DNA from: Verrucomicrobiia bacterium
Lineage (GTDB): Bacteria > Verrucomicrobiota > Verrucomicrobiia > Limisphaerales > JAEYXS01
Direction of reading: 5' to 3'
Assembly (NCBI GenBank): GCA_036405135.1
Contig: DASWYF010000033.1
Span: 64,001 to 128,000, forward strand
DNA length: 64,000 nucleotides
Part shown: one piece after another, positions 4,629 through 18,717 of the stretch
How the letters are laid out: the number at the start of each line of letters is the position of its first letter
Position numbering within the stretch: position 1 is the first letter of the stretch
The notes under the pieces: generated by a model
The model's database searches: none
Seen by the model: only the letters and a program-made list of their open reading frames with translations
What the model was told of the DNA's origin: nothing
Program-made: the position numbers and the translations under genes

Positions 4629-5096
4629 CCCATGTGAGAGGTGAAAGGGGTTCTGCCAAGTCATGTTCATCAAGGGGTATCTCGATGGAATCGGGGATTT
4701 TGGTTCGATGGGGCGGGGAATAGCCTCTGGTTTCAGGTGGAGAGCGTTTTTTTTTATTCTGTGGCCGATTGGGGCGGGGATTATTGGGTTCGGGCGATGA
4801 AAAGATTATCAACCGAATGGGGCAAGAGAATGGAAGGTTAGGATTAAAAGGAGGAGGAGGAGGGGTGAATCATAGCAGGAGTTTTCAGCCGGTTGCACCG
4901 GTGGACTGCTCAATAGCCACAAAGAGGTACCGAAGGCGCAAAAGGGATGAACTGATTTCCAGTTTTGGATTTAGTCATGCAGTGAAAGGATGGACTTTTT
5001 GGTTTTCTTCGGTCCCCCCCAGAAACGTGCGTGATCCCTCCGGCATCGAAGTCAATCGTGCTGGAACAATCCGGCTTATTCCCGGATATTAGAGAT

Positions 5097-5474
5097 ATGA
5101 AGTTCCTGGAGTTAAACCACGTGGCCGTGCATGTCGCGGATGTGACGAAGAGCTGCGAGTTCTATCAACAAGTGCTGCGGTTGGATTCCATTCCACGACC
5201 CGCGTTTGATTTTCCTGGAGCATGGTTTCGCTTGGGGGAGCGGCAGGAACTGCATCTCATCGGGGATCGCACCGTGCCGGTGAATTCGCACAATCGCGGC
5301 GACCACTTCGCACTGCTGGTGGATGATATCGATGCGTGGGAGAGGCACTTGCAATCCACCGGCTATCCGTTTCGCCCGAAGAAAACGCGGCCGGATGGCG
5401 CATGGCAGATCTTCATCATCGATCCAGATGGGCATTACATCGAGCTATGCACGCCACCGGGACCGGTGAAATGA
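5097..5474 (+). CDS. VOC family (glyoxalase-like) metalloprotein
   Basis: The 125-residue protein is a typical single-polypeptide vicinal oxygen chelate domain made of two beta-alpha-beta-beta-beta halves. Candidate metal ligands are His8 (LNHVAVHV), His53 (ELHLI), His70 (GDHFALLV) and Glu116 (HYIELC), in the order used by glyoxalase I, dioxygenases and fosfomycin-modifying enzymes. The ATG at 5097 is chosen because the family begins a few residues before the first ligand; an earlier in-frame ATG at 5031 would add 22 unrelated residues. The substrate is unknown. The radical SAM gene follows 70 bp downstream on the same strand. Confidence 0.85.
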   Translation: MKFLELNHVAVHVADVTKSCEFYQQVLRLDSIPRPAFDFPGAWFRLGERQELHLIGDRTVPVNSHNRGDHFALLVDDIDAWERHLQSTGYPFRPKKTRPDGAWQIFIIDPDGHYIELCTPPGPVK

Positions 5475-5543
5475 TCCCTGTCTTCGTCATTCGGATTTGG
5501 ACATTGCCGCAAGCCCCTTGGCATTCGATCACATAACAGTATA

Positions 5544-6758
5544 ATGCGGCTGATGTATCTGCGCTTTGCCAAACGCCTGCTGGTCGAGACCGATAAACGC
5601 CTGCTCATGAAGCTGGCGTATAACTTCGGCTGGCGCGGCATGCGCTCCGTGCAGCTTTTCAAAAAGCGCATGAAGCAGGGAGAATACTTTCCGCCCTTCC
5701 TCTACGTCTCCGTGCTAAATAGCTGCAACCTCCGCTGCCAAGGCTGCTGGGTGGACGTCGCGGCCAAACAGGAGAAGATTCCGGCAGAGGATTTGCACCG
5801 GCTTATCCGTGAAGCCAGCGCGGCAGGCAACAGCTTCTTCGGCATCCTCGGCGGCGAACCCTTCATGTACAAGGGCCTGCTCGATATCCTCGCGGAGCAC
5901 AAGGACTGTTACTTCCAGATCTTCACGAACGGCCAGCTCATCACGGACGATCTTGCCAAGCAGATGCGCCAGATGGGGAACGTGACACCGCTCGTCAGCA
6001 TCGAGGGTAACGAGATCATCAGCGATGAACGGCGTGGCAAGGATCAGGTGTTCACGCGCTCGATGGCGGGCTTGCAACGCTGCCTGGATAACAAGTTGAT
6101 GACGGGCGTTTCCACCAGCCTGTGCCAGACGAATTTCAAGGACTTGTTGCGTGAAGAGTGGCTGGATCGGCTCATCGAGATGGGTGTGATGTATGCGTGG
6201 TATCACACGTATCGACCGGTGGGGCCGAATCCGAACACGCAACTCTGCCTCACGCCGGAGCAGCAGGTGGAGATTCGCAAGTTCGTGGTGGAGATGCGTG
6301 TGAAGAAGCCTATCGTGCTGGTGGATGCGTACTATCAACACGATGGTCAGGCGCTCTGTCCCGCCGCTACGGGCATCAGCCATCATATCAGCCCCTGGGG
6401 CGCGATCGAGCCGTGCCCCATCATCCAGTTCGCGAAAGAAAACATTCGCGACAAACGGAACATCAAAGACGTTTTCGTGCAATCCGAATACCTGCGCGAT
6501 TTCCGCCAGCTCGCCTCGCAGACCACGCGTGGCTGCATCGTGCTGGAGCGCCCGGACCTGCTGAAAGATTTCGTGCAGAAGCACAAAGCTCCCGATGGCA
6601 CCGCGCGCCAAACCTCACTCGCCGAACTCGCCGCCATGCAACCGCGCACTTCGCAGTATCGTCCGGGCACGGAAGTGCCGGAAAAGAGCTGGGCGTACAA
6701 GTTCGCGAAGAAACATTTCTTCCACGATTTTGGGGCGTATAAGGGGTTGAAATCTTAG
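5544..6758 (+). CDS. Radical SAM protein with SPASM-like C-terminus
   Basis: The 404-residue protein contains the radical SAM cluster motif C-X3-C-X2-C at Cys61, Cys65 and Cys68 (NSCNLRCQGCW), then LGGEPFMYKGLL, matching the GGEP SAM-binding segment. The C-terminal third has further cysteines (LCPAATG, EPCPII, RGCIVL) compatible with an auxiliary iron-sulfur cluster. Enzymes of this class cleave S-adenosylmethionine to start radical chemistry on peptides, lipids or cofactors. The N-terminal 50 residues are basic and amphipathic. No maturation partner or peptide substrate gene is adjacent, so the reaction is undefined. Confidence 0.85.
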   Translation: MRLMYLRFAKRLLVETDKRLLMKLAYNFGWRGMRSVQLFKKRMKQGEYFPPFLYVSVLNSCNLRCQGCWVDVAAKQEKIPAEDLHRLIREASAAGNSFFGILGGEPFMYKGLLDILAEHKDCYFQIFTNGQLITDDLAKQMRQMGNVTPLVSIEGNEIISDERRGKDQVFTRSMAGLQRCLDNKLMTGVSTSLCQTNFKDLLREEWLDRLIEMGVMYAWYHTYRPVGPNPNTQLCLTPEQQVEIRKFVVEMRVKKPIVLVDAYYQHDGQALCPAATGISHHISPWGAIEPCPIIQFAKENIRDKRNIKDVFVQSEYLRDFRQLASQTTRGCIVLERPDLLKDFVQKHKAPDGTARQTSLAELAAMQPRTSQYRPGTEVPEKSWAYKFAKKHFFHDFGAYKGLKS

Positions 6759-11954: not shown

Positions 11955-13064
11955 ATGGATGCCACGGAGGCGTATATCGCGTTAAACATGATTGAGGGTG
12001 TCGGCCCGGTGAGGGTGCGGCAGTTGCTGGACTATTTCGGCGATGCCCCATCTATCTTGAAAGCGGGCAAGGACCAGCTCATGCGCGTGAACGGCATCGG
12101 GCCGGAGATCGCCAATAGCATCGCCTCATGGGAAAGCGATGTGGACCTTAGCGGTGAACTGCGGCGCATCCAGGAATACGGCTGCCATGTGGTGACGAAG
12201 GAAGACGCCGTGTATCCCGCCCACCTCCGCGAGATCTACGATCCGCCGATTGTCTTGTATGTGAAGGGTAAGTTGCTGGAGAAGGATAAGCATTCCGTGG
12301 CCATCGTCGGTTCCCGCATGACCACGAATTACGGCACTGAGACCGCCCGGAAGTTTGGTTACCAGCTTGCCTATGTAGGTGTGACCGTGGTGAGCGGCGG
12401 CGCTCGCGGCATCGATACCAGCGCGCATCAAGGCGCCTTGAACGCCAAGGGCCGGACCATCGCGGTGCTGGGCACGGGCATCAATATCGTTTTCCCCACC
12501 GAGAATGTGCAGTTGTTCGAACGCATCTCTGAAACTGGCGCGGTCATCACGCAATTTCCCTTCAATCGTCCGGCGGACAAGCAGACGTTTCCCATCCGCA
12601 ACCGCATCGTGGCCGGGATGACCTTGGGCACCATCGTGGTGGAGGCGAATCTGGCCAGCGGCGCACTCATCACCGCACGCATGGCCGTGGATGCCGGGCG
12701 ACAGGTCTTCGCCGTGCCAGGTCGCATCGATTCTCCGCGCAGCAAGGGCTGTCACGAGCTCATCAAGAAAGGCGCGAAACTCTGCGAAGGCGCAGAAGAT
12801 GTGCTGAGCGAGTTCGAGTATCTTTTCCCGACGACGAACAAGCCGCCTTCCTTGGCGGAAGGCGGTGAACTGCCCGCTCTGGAACTCTCCACGAACGAAG
12901 CCAAAGTGCTGGACGCCTTCAATAAAGGCTCAGAGACGAGCATGGATGAGATCATCCGGGGCAGTGGATTACCTACATCGGCTGTAGGCGCGACTCTCTT
13001 CGGGCTGGAGATGAAGAAGATCGTGAAACGGTTACCGGGGAATCTGTTTACTCGGCAGCGTTAG
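11955..13064 (+). CDS. dprA: DNA-processing protein DprA
   Basis: The 369-residue protein has the three parts of long DprA proteins: an N-terminal helix-hairpin-helix/SAM-like region (MIEGVGPVRVRQLL, VNGIGPEIA), the Rossmann-like core (VAIVGSRMTTNYG, VVSGGARGIDTSAHQGAL, FPIRNRIVAGM, SGALITARMA) and a C-terminal winged helix (about 310-365). DprA binds incoming single-stranded DNA and loads RecA during natural transformation. With pilin-like genes elsewhere in the window this fits a competent organism, although no com genes are here. The gene converges on and overlaps the Sco-like gene by 17 bp. Confidence 0.97.
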   Translation: MDATEAYIALNMIEGVGPVRVRQLLDYFGDAPSILKAGKDQLMRVNGIGPEIANSIASWESDVDLSGELRRIQEYGCHVVTKEDAVYPAHLREIYDPPIVLYVKGKLLEKDKHSVAIVGSRMTTNYGTETARKFGYQLAYVGVTVVSGGARGIDTSAHQGALNAKGRTIAVLGTGINIVFPTENVQLFERISETGAVITQFPFNRPADKQTFPIRNRIVAGMTLGTIVVEANLASGALITARMAVDAGRQVFAVPGRIDSPRSKGCHELIKKGAKLCEGAEDVLSEFEYLFPTTNKPPSLAEGGELPALELSTNEAKVLDAFNKGSETSMDEIIRGSGLPTSAVGATLFGLEMKKIVKRLPGNLFTRQR

Positions 13065-14076
13065 GCGGGATCGGCACCGGCGGAGCTTCACCCGTCGCAG
13101 GCACCAGTGCCGCTTCTTTCAATTTCGCCACAAGTTCATCCACCTTCCACTCGTTGCCGATGAAGATCGAGTAAACTCGGCCGCGCGTATCGATGACCAC
13201 GGTGCGCATGTTGTGATTGAAGTTAAAGGTGCCGTCCTCGCGGCTGAAGACCATGCCAAAGCGCTCGCCGATGTCATCGATCTCGATCAACGCACCCGTG
13301 AGGAAGCTCCACTTCTCCGGTTTGTAATGCGTGCGCTGCGCGTAGGCGCGCAAGACTTCTGGCGTATCCATCTGCACATCGAAGGAGAGACTGAGCAGGT
13401 GCCAGTTCTTCGGAGCTGTCGTGTCCTCTTCGAGCTTCTGATAGGCGCGCTTGAAGTTATCCGTGAGGCGCGGACAGAAGTTCGGGAACGGACAGCGCGT
13501 GAACATAAAAGTCAACGCCACCGCCTTGCCGCGAAATTCATCCGTGCGGACGCCTTTGCCGAACTCATTGATGAAAGGATAGTCAGGCAGTTTATCGCCC
13601 AGTTTTAACACATCCACATTCCGCACCAAGCGGGTGGTGGGTGGCGGGACGGGTGGCGTGTTCGTATGGCCCAATACCTGAACCTGATCGATCCAGCCAT
13701 CGTCATGCGTCACCAGCATGCGGAAGGAGATGGTGTCACCCACCGCGACACCTGCGAGATCATTGGTGCTCTTGACGCTCAGAGGCATGGTCATCGCCTC
13801 CATGTAACCAGGTATCTCCTCATGGCGGATGACCGCTGTGGTCCCGTTCGGACGAAGCTGCTGCACCACGCCCTTTACCTCAAAAATATTGGTGGCACCA
13901 GGAAGCGGGTCTTTGACCCTCGCAACCGTGGGTTTGGCAATCGTTGGCTTAGTCGGTGCAGGCGGAGCGGTCACGGCTGGCACGGTTGGCGGCGGCGGGT
14001 CACAAGCAGTGACAAAGAGCGCAACTGCCACAAAGGCAGTCACGTAAGCAAATCGATGAACCATATCCAAACGCAT
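13048..14076 (-). CDS. CusF-like/Sco fusion lipoprotein (copper handling)
   Basis: The 342-residue lipoprotein has a signal sequence ending LFVTAC, a Pro/Thr-rich spacer, a CusF-like copper-binding domain (about 65-135: VKGVVQQL, then HEEIPGYMEAMTMPLSV with the His and Met residues expected for Cu(I)) and a Sco1/SenC thioredoxin-like domain (about 155-325). Sco proteins deliver copper to the CuA site of cytochrome c oxidase or keep its thiols reduced. The usual CXXXC is replaced by C-X5-C (RCPFPNFCP), while the downstream His (NFNHNMRTVVID) is present. I chose the ATG at 14076 because 29 codons further upstream would precede the signal peptide. No oxidase genes are in the window. Confidence 0.88.
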   Translation of the reverse strand: MRLDMVHRFAYVTAFVAVALFVTACDPPPPTVPAVTAPPAPTKPTIAKPTVARVKDPLPGATNIFEVKGVVQQLRPNGTTAVIRHEEIPGYMEAMTMPLSVKSTNDLAGVAVGDTISFRMLVTHDDGWIDQVQVLGHTNTPPVPPPTTRLVRNVDVLKLGDKLPDYPFINEFGKGVRTDEFRGKAVALTFMFTRCPFPNFCPRLTDNFKRAYQKLEEDTTAPKNWHLLSLSFDVQMDTPEVLRAYAQRTHYKPEKWSFLTGALIEIDDIGERFGMVFSREDGTFNFNHNMRTVVIDTRGRVYSIFIGNEWKVDELVAKLKEAALVPATGEAPPVPIPPNAAE

Positions 14077-14307
14077 GATGGACCTATTATAAGATCGTTT
14101 CTCCTGCCGCACAATAACGGGCGCAAACCACCTCGTTGCTAAGGTTTCCCGCCCGCGTCTCATATTACTAGACGTGTCTTACCCGCTTTATACTCAAAAA
14201 TCTTTGGCTGAATGTGCCGTCAGGTGCCTTCGTCAGTCTTTTCCTCATTGAATCGGAATGCCTTTATGGCTTTGCTAGGTTTACCCAAACAGCCCGTGAA
14301 TTTGTTT

Positions 14308-17300
14308 ATGCATCAGCGCATCCTTGCCATCACGTTCAGCCTGCTCGGCGCCGTCATCGCCCACGCCCAGCAACCGGCGAAGCTGGACCTCAAACCCGGC
14401 GAGCACATCGCCATCATCGGCAACTCCCTGCCGGACCGCATGCAGCACAGCGGCTACTTCGAGGCGCTCATCCAGGCCAAGTATCCCAAACACGAACTGG
14501 TGGTGCGCAATCTCGGTTTCGCCGGTGATGAAGTGATGAAGCGCAGTCGCTCGGAGAATTTCGGCTCGCCCGATGAATGGCTCACCAAAGTGCAGGCGGA
14601 TGTCATCTTCGCATACTTCGGCTTCAACGAATCGTTCAAAGGCTACGGCGGCATCGAGCAGTTCAAGGCCGAGCTGGGCCTGTTCCTGAAAGAGACGAAG
14701 GCGAAGAATTATTCCGGCAAAGGCGCACCGCGCATCGTCCTCTTCTCGCCGATCGCCAATGAGAAGCATCGTGATGCCAATTTCCCTGACCCGACGGCGA
14801 ATAACACGAATCTGGAGAACTACACCGCTGCCATGGCCGAGGTGGCCAAGGCGAATGATGTGCAATTCGTGGATCTCTTCCGCCCGTCACAGCAACTTTA
14901 CGCCGCGCAGAAAGGTCAATCACTCACGGTAAACGGCCTCCATCTCACGGAAGAAGGTGACAAAGTGCTCGCGCCCGTGATGTTCCAAAGCGTGTTCGGC
15001 GAGAAAGCTCCCGGCGGCAATCTGGAAAAACTGCGAGGAGCCATCAATGACAAGAACACCGAATGGCACGCGCGCTATCGCACGGTGGATGGTTACAACG
15101 TCTATGGCGGCCGCTCGAAGCTAAGCTACGAATCTCCCAAGGGCGCGGCGAAGATCTCTAACTACGATGTGATGCAGCAGGAGATGGCGCAGCGCGATGT
15201 GTTGACGGCGAATCGCGACAAACGCGTCTGGTCCGTGGCCCAAGGCGGTGATCTCAAAGTGGATGATTCAAATCTGCCTGCGGTGACCGAAGTGAAATCC
15301 AACAAGCCCGGCGCGAATGCCGACGGCTCGCATAAGTTCCTCGGTGCAGAAGAAGCCATCGCGGCCATGAAGGTTCACTCCAGCATGAAGGTGAATCTCT
15401 TCGCCAGCGAGGAGCAGTTCCCGGAACTGGTCTACCCCGTGCAGATGAATTGGGACACGAAAGGTCGTCTCTGGGTCGCCGCGTGGCTGAACTATCCCGA
15501 ACGCACACCGACCTCGAAGAAGGGCGATAGTCTCCTGATCTTTGAAGACACGAACGGTGATGGCAAAGCGGACAAGTGCACGACCTTTCTCGAAGGTCTG
15601 AATTGCCCGACTGGTTTCCAGTTCTATCAGGATGGCGTGTTGCTCATGCAGGCGCCGGACCTGTGGTTCGTGCGGGATACGAATGGCGATGGCAAGGCGG
15701 ACACGATGCAGCGCGTGCTGATGGGCATGGATTCGGCTGACTCGCATCATACCGCAAACGCCATCTGCTATGAACCGGGCGGTGCGATCTACTTGAGCGA
15801 TGGCGTGTTCCATCGTTCCCAAGTCGAGACGGCCAATGGCGTGGTGCGTAACAACGATGGCGCGATCTACCGCTACGAGCCGCGCACGGGCAAGTTCGAG
15901 ACGTATGTTTCCTACGGCTTCGCGAATCCGCACGGTCGCGTCTTCGATTACTGGGGCAATGACTTCATCACGGATGCCACGGGTAACAACACTTACTTCG
16001 GCCCGGCGTTCAGCGGTCGTATCGATTATCCCGCCAAGCATGCGAGCATGAAACAGTTCTGGGATCGTCCTTCACGTCCTTGCCCCGGCACTGGCATCCT
16101 CTCCAGCCGCCATTTCCCGGAAGAGTTTCAGAATAATTTCCTGAATCTGAACGTGATCGGCTTCCAAGGTATTTACCGCGTGAAGGTGGATCAGGACGGC
16201 TCTGGTCTGAAGGGGCAGACGCTTGAGCACCTGATCTTCTCGGAAGATCCGAATTTCCGTCCCTCCGATGTCCGCGTGGGGCCGGATGGCGCGCTTTATT
16301 TCACGGACTGGCACATCCCGCTCATCGGCCACATGCAGCATCACTTGCGCGATCCGAATCGTGGCAGCTCACGCGGTCGCATCTATCGCATCACGTATGA
16401 GGGCCGTCCGCTGCTGAAGCCTGCGAAGATCGATGGTCAATCCATCGAGAAACTCCTCGATCTCTTGAAGGAACCCGAGAACGGCACGCGTGAACTCGCG
16501 AAGATCGAACTCAGCAAGCACGACAGCGCAAAGGTCGTCGCAGCGGTGAAGAAGTGGGCGGCAGCCTTGGATAAGAAAGATCCCGCTTATGAGCATCACA
16601 TGATGGAAGCACTCTGGGTGCATCAGTGGCACAACATTGTGAACGTGGACTTGCTCAAGCGCATGCTCCGCTCACCTGAAGCGAATGCCCGCGCCGCCGC
16701 TACACGCGTGCTCTGCTACTGGCGCGATCGCGTGTCCGATGTGCTGCCGCTCCTCGCAGTGCAGGCAGCGGATGAAAGCCCACGCGTCCGCCTCGAGGCC
16801 GTTCGCGCGGCCAGCTTCTTTGAGAATGCTCAAGCCGCCGATGTCGCACTCGCCTCGCTTAAGCAGCAACCCACGGATTATTATCTGGATTACACGCTGG
16901 GCGAGACGATGAAGCAGTTGGAGAAATACTGGCGCAAGACGATAGCCGATGGCAAACCCATCGCCGCGGATAATGCCCAAGGAATCAACTACCTCCTACG
17001 CTTCCTCACATCCGGCGAGTTGCAGAAACTACCGCGCACATCAGGTGTGCTGGAAGCGATCCTCACACGCCCCGGCATCAGCGATGCAGACCGTGCATTG
17101 GCTCTCGATGAGCTGGCTCAACAACGCAAGACGGACAAAGCCACGCTGCTGATCAATCTGCTCGATAGTAATCAGAAGGACCGCACGGCGTCGGGCAATC
17201 TGGCTCGCTTGCTCGCGTGGCAAGCTCCGGCGGAATTGAAAGCGCAACGTGCGCGGCTGGCCATGCTGACCAGCTCCAATGTGCCGGATGTGCGCTCCGC

Positions 17301-18717
17301 TGCATGGGCCGCGCTGGCATTGGCGGGTGACGGATTTGAAACGGTCTGGAAAGATGCGAGCAAGGAACCCAAGACCTTGCAGGATCTGTTGGCGGGCATT
17401 CCGCGCCTGACGGATTCGGATTTCCGCGCGAAGGCTTACAGCAAAGTTCTTCCGCTCTTGAACGAGCTGCCTGCCGCATGGAACGCGAATGCGCCCAAGA
17501 CCGCGAAGGGTCGTTACGTTCGTATCGAATTGCCGCGCAAAGGCACGTTGACGCTGGCTGAGGTGCAAGTCTTCAGTGGCGGCAATAACATCGCGTTGAA
17601 GGGCAAGGCGAAGCAATCCACCACCTCGCATGGCGGCGATGCCAAACGGGCGATCGATGGCAAGATTGATACAAACTACGGCAGCGGCACACTGACACAC
17701 ACTCAGGAGAATTCGGACAATCCGTGGTGGGAACTGGACTTGGGCAGCGACCAGACGATCGAGAATGTGGCGGTCTGGAATCGCGTGGAGGGTGGCTTGG
17801 AAACGCGCTTGAATGACTTCACGCTCGTGGTGCTGGATGGCAATCGTGCAGAAGTTTTCAAGAAGGCGGGCAATCCGACACCGAAGCCGAGCGTGACACT
17901 CGCCGTGGGACCGAATGATCCGACGGGAAATATCCGACGCAACGCGATTCAGGCGCTAGTGAGCATGGGACATGAACCGAAGGCGGTCTTCAATGCGCTG
18001 GCGAAGTTGATCGCGGACAAGAAAGACGTGACTGCCGCTGCCCGCGGCATCGTGGTCCTTCCGCGCGCGGAGTGGCCAAAGAAGGAAGCAGGCGAGACGG
18101 CAAAAGCCCTCGCGGCTTGGGCCAAGACAGTGCCCGAAGGCGACCGCACGGCACAGGAATTCATCGAGACATTGCAGGTGGCGAACGATCTGGCGGGGCA
18201 GCTTCCAGCAAATGAAGCCACAACGCTCCGCAAGGAATTGCGGGCGATCAGCGTGTCCGTCTTCGTCATCCGCACAGTCGTCGAGCAGATGCGCTATGAC
18301 ACACCGCGCATCGTAGTGGAAGCGGGCAAGCCGTTTGAGATCATCATCGAGAACCCGGACTTCATGCCGCACAACCTGGTCGTCATCAAACCCGGCACGC
18401 GCGAGAAGATCGGCAATGCCACGGCCACGATGATGCCGGACCAGCTCGATAGCCAAGGCCGTCCTTTCGTGCCAAAGGGTGGCGATGTCCTTGCCGCCAC
18501 GAAACTGCTCGAACCCGGCATGCGCGAAACGCTCAAGATGACCGCTCCGACTCAGGAAGGCGTGTATGAATACGTCTGCACCTATCCCGGCCACTGGATG
18601 ATCATGTGGGGCCAGCTCGTAGTGACGAAGGATGTGGATGGCTATCTGCAAGCCAATCCGCAAGTGAAGCTCTCGGCGTCAGCCGAGGGCGAAGGCCACG
18701 AGCATCATAAGAAGTAA
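14308..18717 (+). CDS. Giant exported SGNH / PVC propeller / HEAT / discoidin / cupredoxin protein
   Basis: The 1,469-residue protein starts at the ATG at 14308, which gives a clean signal peptide ending AHAQ. An SGNH hydrolase-like domain follows (about 25-240) with GNS in place of GDS, a GFNE block and DGLHLTEEG-type block V (NGLHLTEEGDK). Then come a PVC-type glucose-dehydrogenase-like beta-propeller (about 356-700, with repeated DTNGDGKAD segments), HEAT-like helices (about 710-1040), a discoidin (F5/8C) domain (about 1068-1185) and a C-terminal cupredoxin (about 1315-1445). The cupredoxin has His in MPHNLVV, Cys in YVCTYPGH, His in PGH and Met in WMIMWG, a type 1 copper site. Related proteins typically carry a CXXCH haem motif; none is present here. 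It is probably a periplasmic dehydrogenase passing electrons to copper (inference). Confidence 0.9.
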   Translation: MHQRILAITFSLLGAVIAHAQQPAKLDLKPGEHIAIIGNSLPDRMQHSGYFEALIQAKYPKHELVVRNLGFAGDEVMKRSRSENFGSPDEWLTKVQADVIFAYFGFNESFKGYGGIEQFKAELGLFLKETKAKNYSGKGAPRIVLFSPIANEKHRDANFPDPTANNTNLENYTAAMAEVAKANDVQFVDLFRPSQQLYAAQKGQSLTVNGLHLTEEGDKVLAPVMFQSVFGEKAPGGNLEKLRGAINDKNTEWHARYRTVDGYNVYGGRSKLSYESPKGAAKISNYDVMQQEMAQRDVLTANRDKRVWSVAQGGDLKVDDSNLPAVTEVKSNKPGANADGSHKFLGAEEAIAAMKVHSSMKVNLFASEEQFPELVYPVQMNWDTKGRLWVAAWLNYPERTPTSKKGDSLLIFEDTNGDGKADKCTTFLEGLNCPTGFQFYQDGVLLMQAPDLWFVRDTNGDGKADTMQRVLMGMDSADSHHTANAICYEPGGAIYLSDGVFHRSQVETANGVVRNNDGAIYRYEPRTGKFETYVSYGFANPHGRVFDYWGNDFITDATGNNTYFGPAFSGRIDYPAKHASMKQFWDRPSRPCPGTGILSSRHFPEEFQNNFLNLNVIGFQGIYRVKVDQDGSGLKGQTLEHLIFSEDPNFRPSDVRVGPDGALYFTDWHIPLIGHMQHHLRDPNRGSSRGRIYRITYEGRPLLKPAKIDGQSIEKLLDLLKEPENGTRELAKIELSKHDSAKVVAAVKKWAAALDKKDPAYEHHMMEALWVHQWHNIVNVDLLKRMLRSPEANARAAATRVLCYWRDRVSDVLPLLAVQAADESPRVRLEAVRAASFFENAQAADVALASLKQQPTDYYLDYTLGETMKQLEKYWRKTIADGKPIAADNAQGINYLLRFLTSGELQKLPRTSGVLEAILTRPGISDADRALALDELAQQRKTDKATLLINLLDSNQKDRTASGNLARLLAWQAPAELKAQRARLAMLTSSNVPDVRSAAWAALALAGDGFETVWKDASKEPKTLQDLLAGIPRLTDSDFRAKAYSKVLPLLNELPAAWNANAPKTAKGRYVRIELPRKGTLTLAEVQVFSGGNNIALKGKAKQSTTSHGGDAKRAIDGKIDTNYGSGTLTHTQENSDNPWWELDLGSDQTIENVAVWNRVEGGLETRLNDFTLVVLDGNRAEVFKKAGNPTPKPSVTLAVGPNDPTGNIRRNAIQALVSMGHEPKAVFNALAKLIADKKDVTAAARGIVVLPRAEWPKKEAGETAKALAAWAKTVPEGDRTAQEFIETLQVANDLAGQLPANEATTLRKELRAISVSVFVIRTVVEQMRYDTPRIVVEAGKPFEIIIENPDFMPHNLVVIKPGTREKIGNATATMMPDQLDSQGRPFVPKGGDVLAATKLLEPGMRETLKMTAPTQEGVYEYVCTYPGHWMIMWGQLVVTKDVDGYLQANPQVKLSASAEGEGHEHHKK

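Follow-up and report, generated by a model that had tools for sequence, protein, structure and literature searches.

A type 1 copper ending on a verrucomicrobial propeller protein and the endings of its orthologues

A 64,000-nucleotide window of a Verrucomicrobiia bacterium genome (assembly GCA_036405135.1, contig DASWYF010000033.1, positions 64,001 to 128,000; coordinates below count from the first letter of the window) encodes a 1,469-residue protein at 14308-18717. Its chain joins an SGNH/GDSL-like domain, a TIGR02604 beta-propeller, HEAT repeats, a discoidin domain, and a C-terminal type 1 copper (cupredoxin) domain. An earlier note, made from the sequence alone, had proposed that the cupredoxin replaces the cytochrome c domain of related propeller proteins from the Planctomycetes-Verrucomicrobia-Chlamydiae (PVC) group. 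The copper tail had been seen correctly, but it was misread: copper is the norm of the protein's own family, and haem is the newcomer. The main interest of this family, for which no description of a copper-ended form was found in the literature searched, lies in the three interchangeable endings carried by one scaffold. In the explanation favoured here, which we consider slightly better than an even bet, the gene belongs to a conserved verrucomicrobial TIGR02604 orthologue group, of which it represents the copper-only form with a single chain, and the electrons of the propeller would leave through the copper.

Copper and haem endings among paralogues and orthologues

The TIGR02604 propellers form a large expansion in the source genome, where 25 open reading frames (ORFs) pass the family cut-off, and one biochemical report on them was found in the literature searched. 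In 22 of the other 24 a CxxCH motif follows the propeller (17 with the haem domain TIGR02603 over its cut-off, five by the motif), so that the usual CxxCH ending ascribed by the note to related proteins is true of the same-genome paralogues. The remaining two are a protein whose haem domain is encoded by the following ORF (L208) and one near a contig end (L206), which stops about 230 bases before that end and in which no haem domain was seen. The copper-binding family PF00127 occurs once in this genome. The copper-tailed protein is therefore odd among its same-genome paralogues, carrying copper where they carry haem. In the L024/L208 paralogue (C43:28040-31089) the propeller ORF and the haem ORF are separate and overlap by about 20 bases.

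The proteins known as PVC-type heme-binding CxxCH proteins (TIGR02604 plus TIGR02603) resemble the one described here in their propeller, their HEAT repeats, and their many paralogues per genome. Here, however, the chain lacks the TIGR02603 haem domain and closes with a type 1 copper domain. The full chain contains no CxxCH motif, as had been claimed, and TIGR02603 gives no match to this ORF, so that the label does not apply as named. Some caution is needed with this name, since it may cover a protein without a haem site.

The search for orthologues in named genomes used an alignment confined to the SGNH-propeller-HEAT part; it holds nothing of the ending, although 24 of its 29 rows come from single-chain copper-only proteins. 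Among the 79 loci found in this way, 54 are single chains with a copper ending and without CxxCH, and 14 are split in two genes, the second of which comprises HEAT repeats, cupredoxin, and CxxCH. The others are split loci whose second gene did not lie in the stretch retrieved (seven), loci cut by a contig end (three), and one that is split and copper-only; haem-only orthologues were found at none of the 79. The copper tail is standard among orthologues, and the count of haem versus cupredoxin endings suggested by the note as a check came out with copper dominant. The idea of copper in place of haem thus stands with respect to the same-genome paralogues but not for the orthologues, where the cupredoxin is standard, an outcome that the note itself had listed as contrary to its proposal. 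Some metagenome bins titled 'Akkermansia muciniphila' (L122, L123, L134, L152, L175, L176, L178, and L190) have sequences that group with Pedosphaera-like relatives, and their names look wrong.

A similar picture was obtained from 116 genomes of the order, a sample that shares some genomes with the 79 named loci and is not independent of them. A cupredoxin-domain match was found in 65 of these genomes and an SGNH-propeller match (1e-110 or better) in 68. Sorted by hand, 25 have the single chain (G060, copper-ended and with 54% identity, is not counted), 28 have a gene for the SGNH-propeller-HEAT part (gene 1), and 27 have one for the HEAT-cupredoxin part (gene 2). Genes 1 and 2 occur together in 26 genomes (Fisher p 1.8e-22, uncorrected for kinship), and the 25 single-chain genomes contain neither of them. 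G056 was counted for gene 2 alone, with a truncated gene 1 adjoining it (L096), and the two genomes with gene 1 only, G018 and G114, have a completeness of 75% and 62%. In gene 2, a CxxCH stands after the cupredoxin in 26 of the 27 sequences, the sole miss being cut at a contig end, and the haem domain of the one sequence tested, L142, belongs to TIGR02603 (93.8 bits, cut-off 68.15). The two genes lie on different contigs in several genomes, and at L151 no gene 2 was found within 6 kb of gene 1; the split genes therefore need not adjoin. This fusion/fission pair ties the two genes functionally, even when they are apart.

In a sample of the phylum, 14 of 387 genomes, among them the source genome, gave a match of 1e-200 or better. 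The other 13 hold 15 loci, namely 11 single chains with copper, one split locus with copper, and three haem-only loci, L202, L203, and L205, which form one family and have CxxCH but lack a copper domain. A general loss of copper domains in that lineage was considered and rejected for G217 and G498, whose other proteins include some with cupredoxin domains. More distant propellers include both copper-only chains (8 rows) and copper-plus-haem chains (4 rows), with copper endings in the groups L100-L103 and L107-L110, and changes of ending have therefore happened more than once. Cupredoxin and CxxCH stand in tandem in one chain in the distant propellers L104, L105, and L106, whose lengths run from 1,578 to 1,958 residues, plus a divergent one of 1,319.

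The order of events was approached with a tree of the SGNH-propeller-HEAT part (88 rows, after 19 near-copy or cut rows and two very long outgroup rows had been dropped). Nineteen rows of split genes group together, with a value of 98 in the Shimodaira-Hasegawa-like approximate likelihood ratio test (SH-aLRT), and the split locus L187 falls just outside this group. The haem-only family is a clade as well (SH-aLRT 98), and both groups are nested among copper-only chains. The copper-only proteins as a single clade were rejected by the approximately unbiased test (p-AU 1.7e-60, 61 rows), in which the group had been named after the tree was seen and long branches were flagged. A recent replacement of haem by copper in this lineage is thus rejected for the orthologues by the distribution, the tree, and the one-clade test, since the copper-only proteins make up no single derived clade and the haem-bearing states nest within them. 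The tree instead supports copper-only as the probable background state of the orthologue group, with haem arriving later. In a tree of the copper domain only, the domains of the split form stay together (SH-aLRT 87), which fits descent with the propeller rather than fresh acquisition. In the simplest account, copper-only chains would have come first; a haem domain would then have been gained a single time, behind the cupredoxin, as the gene broke within the HEAT array, and in another family copper would have been exchanged once for haem.

The copper site

The C-terminal copper site claimed from the sequence was confirmed by the PF00127 score, the invariant ligands, and the predicted fold. The ligand set (His1355, Cys1424, His1429, and Met1433) is complete and unchanged in 44 of 44 aligned relatives. 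The profile of the domain matches auracyanin A at 1.6e-18, placing His of the MPHN motif, as well as Cys, His, and Met in the CTYPGHWMIM loop, on the corresponding residues, which are the copper ligands of auracyanin and azurin. The structure prediction proposed in the note, built from the 44 aligned relatives, gave a confident model, with a mean predicted local distance difference test (pLDDT) of 91.8 and means of about 94-98 over the 10-residue blocks of the core. Its top solved match in Foldseek is a Roseiflexus auracyanin (8.7e-12). VIA-align superposes the model on auracyanin with Z 19.1 and a root-mean-square deviation (rmsd) of 1.8 over 119 aligned residues, and on azurin 2aza with Z 16.8 and rmsd 2.0 over 120. 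The alignments and the model thus identify a real copper site of the auracyanin/azurin fold.

The domain also appears to be maintained by selection. Against a congener, the ratio of nonsynonymous to synonymous substitution rates (dN/dS) is 0.032 for the copper domain, 0.033 for the propeller, and 0.131 for the discoidin domain. As the copper domain is under constraint as strong as that on the propeller, it is neither a chance match nor a relic.

Auracyanin and azurin (PF00127) share with this domain the fold, the His-Cys-His-Met ligands, and the C-x4-H-x3-M loop. They are, however, free carriers, whereas here the copper domain is tethered at the C terminus of a large protein, which also misses the threshold of the azurin equivalog TIGR02695 (31.7 bits, cut-off 105.1). 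A survey of azurins (PMC8779525) left out matches longer than 200 residues and could therefore not count copper-tailed propellers; the same survey gives MGHN where the protein here has MPHN. A cupredoxin where relatives have the haem c fold is also described (PMC8756737) for the second subunit of the sNOR, gNOR, and eNOR nitric oxide reductases, but these enzymes are unrelated, and the swap there lies in a separate subunit.

Propeller chemistry and the route of electrons

The propeller model (pLDDT 86.7) has as its nearest solved structure the AA12 pyranose dehydrogenase 6i1t (Z 28.5, rmsd 2.8, 292 aligned), and it is also close to soluble glucose dehydrogenase (sGDH) 1qbi (Z 26.7, rmsd 3.2, 298 aligned). 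The closest model for the whole arrangement is CcPDH from Coprinopsis cinerea, an AA12 pyranose dehydrogenase dependent on pyrroloquinoline quinone (PQQ), in which a sugar-dehydrogenase-type propeller and an electron-transfer domain are likewise joined. Electrons pass there from PQQ to the fused haem domain (PMC6881789), and that domain is an N-terminal cytochrome b (AA8) acting with bound PQQ, whereas here the fused domain is a C-terminal copper domain and PQQ is a putative cofactor.

Based on the fold and on this analogy, we infer that the propeller is an oxidoreductase, and an exit of electrons through the copper is plausible. The exported AA12/sGDH-fold propeller would act on a substrate, probably a carbohydrate, while the HEAT scaffold would carry both the propeller and the sugar-binding-type discoidin domain. 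The azurin/auracyanin-like copper would most likely take the electrons of the propeller one at a time and hand them on. For the split clade, the tree supports a break of the gene inside the HEAT array and the gain of a TIGR02603 haem domain directly after the cupredoxin, which gives the order copper, then haem, and another lineage has haem in place of copper. The acceptor would presumably differ between the copper, copper-haem, and haem forms. The orthologue group can thus be viewed as a natural experiment, with a copper, copper-plus-haem, or haem output on one scaffold, and a comparison of these forms could reveal both the role of the propeller and its electron carrier.

Several points weigh against this explanation. 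The same propeller fold is found in SMP30 and lactonases (Z 23-24), and the fold therefore allows redox or hydrolytic chemistry. Neither PqqC nor PqqE passes its cut-off in the 97.8%-complete source genome (best scores 33.6 bits against 240 and 44.9 against 381.35). In a tentative alignment, obtained with hhalign to one weak GSDH-like protein, His481 and Asn540 of the putative PQQ site are conserved, but Ala539 (64 of 71 rows) is found where the PQQ-site Arg is expected. When the propeller alignment was searched as a profile against solved structures, it returned weak or chance matches only, and the PQQ ligands could therefore not be mapped by sequence onto a solved enzyme. The geometry around the metal is taken from the fold matches and the ligand alignment rather than from inspected coordinates. 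The root of the 88-row tree is weak (SH-aLRT 41), with some long outgroup branches and an outgroup that does not fall on one side of a branch. Finally, the only characterised TIGR02604 protein found in the literature searched, the verrucomicrobial Lac161_ORF7 (AGW45552), was purified and released glucose from lactose with a Km of 1.8 mM (PMC5342196).

This last protein, reported as a novel beta-galactosidase, is the main support for a fairly unlikely alternative in which the propeller is a beta-galactosidase-like glycoside hydrolase and the copper or haem domains serve for docking or have a separate redox role. Lac161_ORF7 also combines TIGR02604 with HEAT_2, but it ends in cytochrome c (PMC5342196) instead of copper. 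The lectin-like discoidin domain and the lack of PqqC and PqqE would suit a hydrolase too. However, every complete orthologue with an observed C-terminal gene has a copper or haem domain of the one-electron kind, and the strong constraint on this carrier domain would be needless for a pure hydrolase. Moreover, the comparison with Lac161_ORF7 is one of domain content, and release of glucose was the sole measure of its hydrolysis. An unlikely possibility is that these proteins are extracytoplasmic, PQQ-independent glycoside oxidoreductases with exchangeable outputs, in which a sugar-oxidising propeller would deliver its electrons to copper, to copper and then haem, or to haem, depending on the lineage. 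Oxidation to a breakable keto-sugar might then also explain the beta-galactosidase activity reported for the relative.

The replacement of an ancestral cytochrome c domain by the cupredoxin in this lineage is improbable. The 22 CxxCH-bearing paralogues are in its favour, and copper may once have displaced haem at the scale of the superfamily; however, the orthologue group has copper as its standard ending, copper endings also occur in several groups further away, and the haem-only and copper-haem forms nest inside the copper-only ones, which form no single clade. Exit of electrons through an older copper ending remains the preferred explanation.

Gene organisation, other domains, and neighbours

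The domain set claimed in the note is confirmed by Pfam and NCBIfam models, the best curated model of each domain scoring over its cut-off; for TIGR02604 the whole-protein score is 218.5 bits (cut-off 122.2). The features are collected in Table 1. The frame could begin at 14212, 32 codons upstream, but a signal-peptide-like MHQRILAITFSLLGAVIAHAQQ starts at 14308, and the first 22 residues of the chain look, by eye, like a Sec signal peptide. The whole gene is under purifying selection (dN/dS 0.07-0.10, two congeners compared).

Table 1. Positions of the gene, its domains and copper ligands, and the divergent neighbour in the window.
Feature	Position	Strand	Details
Divergent neighbour, CusF-like + SCO1/SenC copper protein	13051..14163	-	CusF_Ec PF11604 44.0 bits; PF02630 64.1 bits
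Whole gene	14308..18717	+	Open frame; 1,469 residues, predicted exported multi-domain propeller protein with cupredoxin tail
SGNH/GDSL-like domain, Lipase_GDSL_2 (PF13472)	14449..14964	+	Residues 48-219; 48.1 bits, cut-off 32.9
DUF7133 / TIGR02604 beta-propeller	15349..16401	+	DUF7133 residues 348-698; 231.5 bits, cut-off 27
HEAT-repeat array	16408..17571	+	Span of the P0001 segment conserved in orthologues
HEAT_2 (PF13646), curated match	16651-16878	+	Residues 782-857; 48.8 bits
Discoidin / fucolectin-like domain, F5_F8_type_C_2 (PF22633)	17647..17865	+	Residues 1114-1186; inserted in HEAT array
Type 1 copper (cupredoxin) domain, Copper-bind (PF00127)	18283..18624	+	Residues 1326-1439; 40.5 bits, cut-off 21.2
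Copper ligand His1355 (MPHN)	18370..18372	+	Invariant 44/44; aligns with His of auracyanin A and azurin
Copper ligand loop Cys1424, His1429, Met1433 (CTYPGHWMIM)	18577..18606	+	Invariant 44/44; aligns with auracyanin A CTVPGHYPLM

In each of the genus's three genomes, the SCO1-CusF gene adjoins the copper-tailed gene in divergent orientation, and its product may load the copper-tailed protein there. It was found at none of the other 78 named loci, many of which have short upstream flanks; outside the genus, L092 has one partial SCO ORF. A copper-chaperone neighbour as a general feature was therefore rejected, SCO-CusF being confined to the genus. That the copper domain would be a metal sink or sensor for copper handling, outside the electron route, is highly improbable: this neighbour and the at least two His within the last 15 residues of 30 of the 54 single-chain proteins would agree with it, but the neighbour is unconserved outside the genus, and the domain, which belongs to the electron-transfer type, stands directly before the haem domain in the split form. 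A conserved operon was likewise rejected, with no neighbour family near more than 8 of the 79 named loci; the larger clusters of neighbours come mostly from close relatives.

Strong similarity links the discoidin domain to FBP32 (3cqo, 7.5e-25) and to proteins related to fucolectin. Of 55 single-chain copper-only proteins, 41 have this domain, which is the fastest-evolving and least constrained one of the chain.

The suggestion that the SGNH domain, with its GNS motif, acts on the same polymer found no support. The catalytic residues of SGNH hydrolases are a Ser nucleophile and an Asp-His pair. This protein has Ser40 and His212, with Asn209 in place of the Asp. Among 71 rows of the single-chain class, the position of the GNS serine is Ser in 2 (this protein included), Ala in 44, Gly in 15, and Thr in 5, while at the position of the block V Asp 67 rows have Asn and 4 have Asp, and the His is present in 28. 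The conserved Ser nucleophile and Asp-His pair of an SGNH hydrolase were thus not found across these 71 rows. A second enzyme on the same polymer is unlikely because the nucleophile is missing in nearly all relatives, and judging from these residues, a working esterase is unlikely and the domain is probably not catalytic across the family.

Some relatives, several of them labelled Opitutae, carry about 400 extra N-terminal residues (L186 at 4705-6000, L164, L172, L182, L184, and L189). The only extension scanned, that of L186, is ThuA-like at 25.6 bits, under the cut-off of 33.4. Gfo/Idh/MocA oxidoreductases, ThuA-like proteins, and xylose-isomerase-like proteins belong together in keto-sugar pathways. 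In the Opitutae-type relatives, genes for a Gfo/Idh/MocA oxidoreductase and for a TIM barrel of the xylose-isomerase-like kind are found close by, neighbours that point to sugar oxidation.

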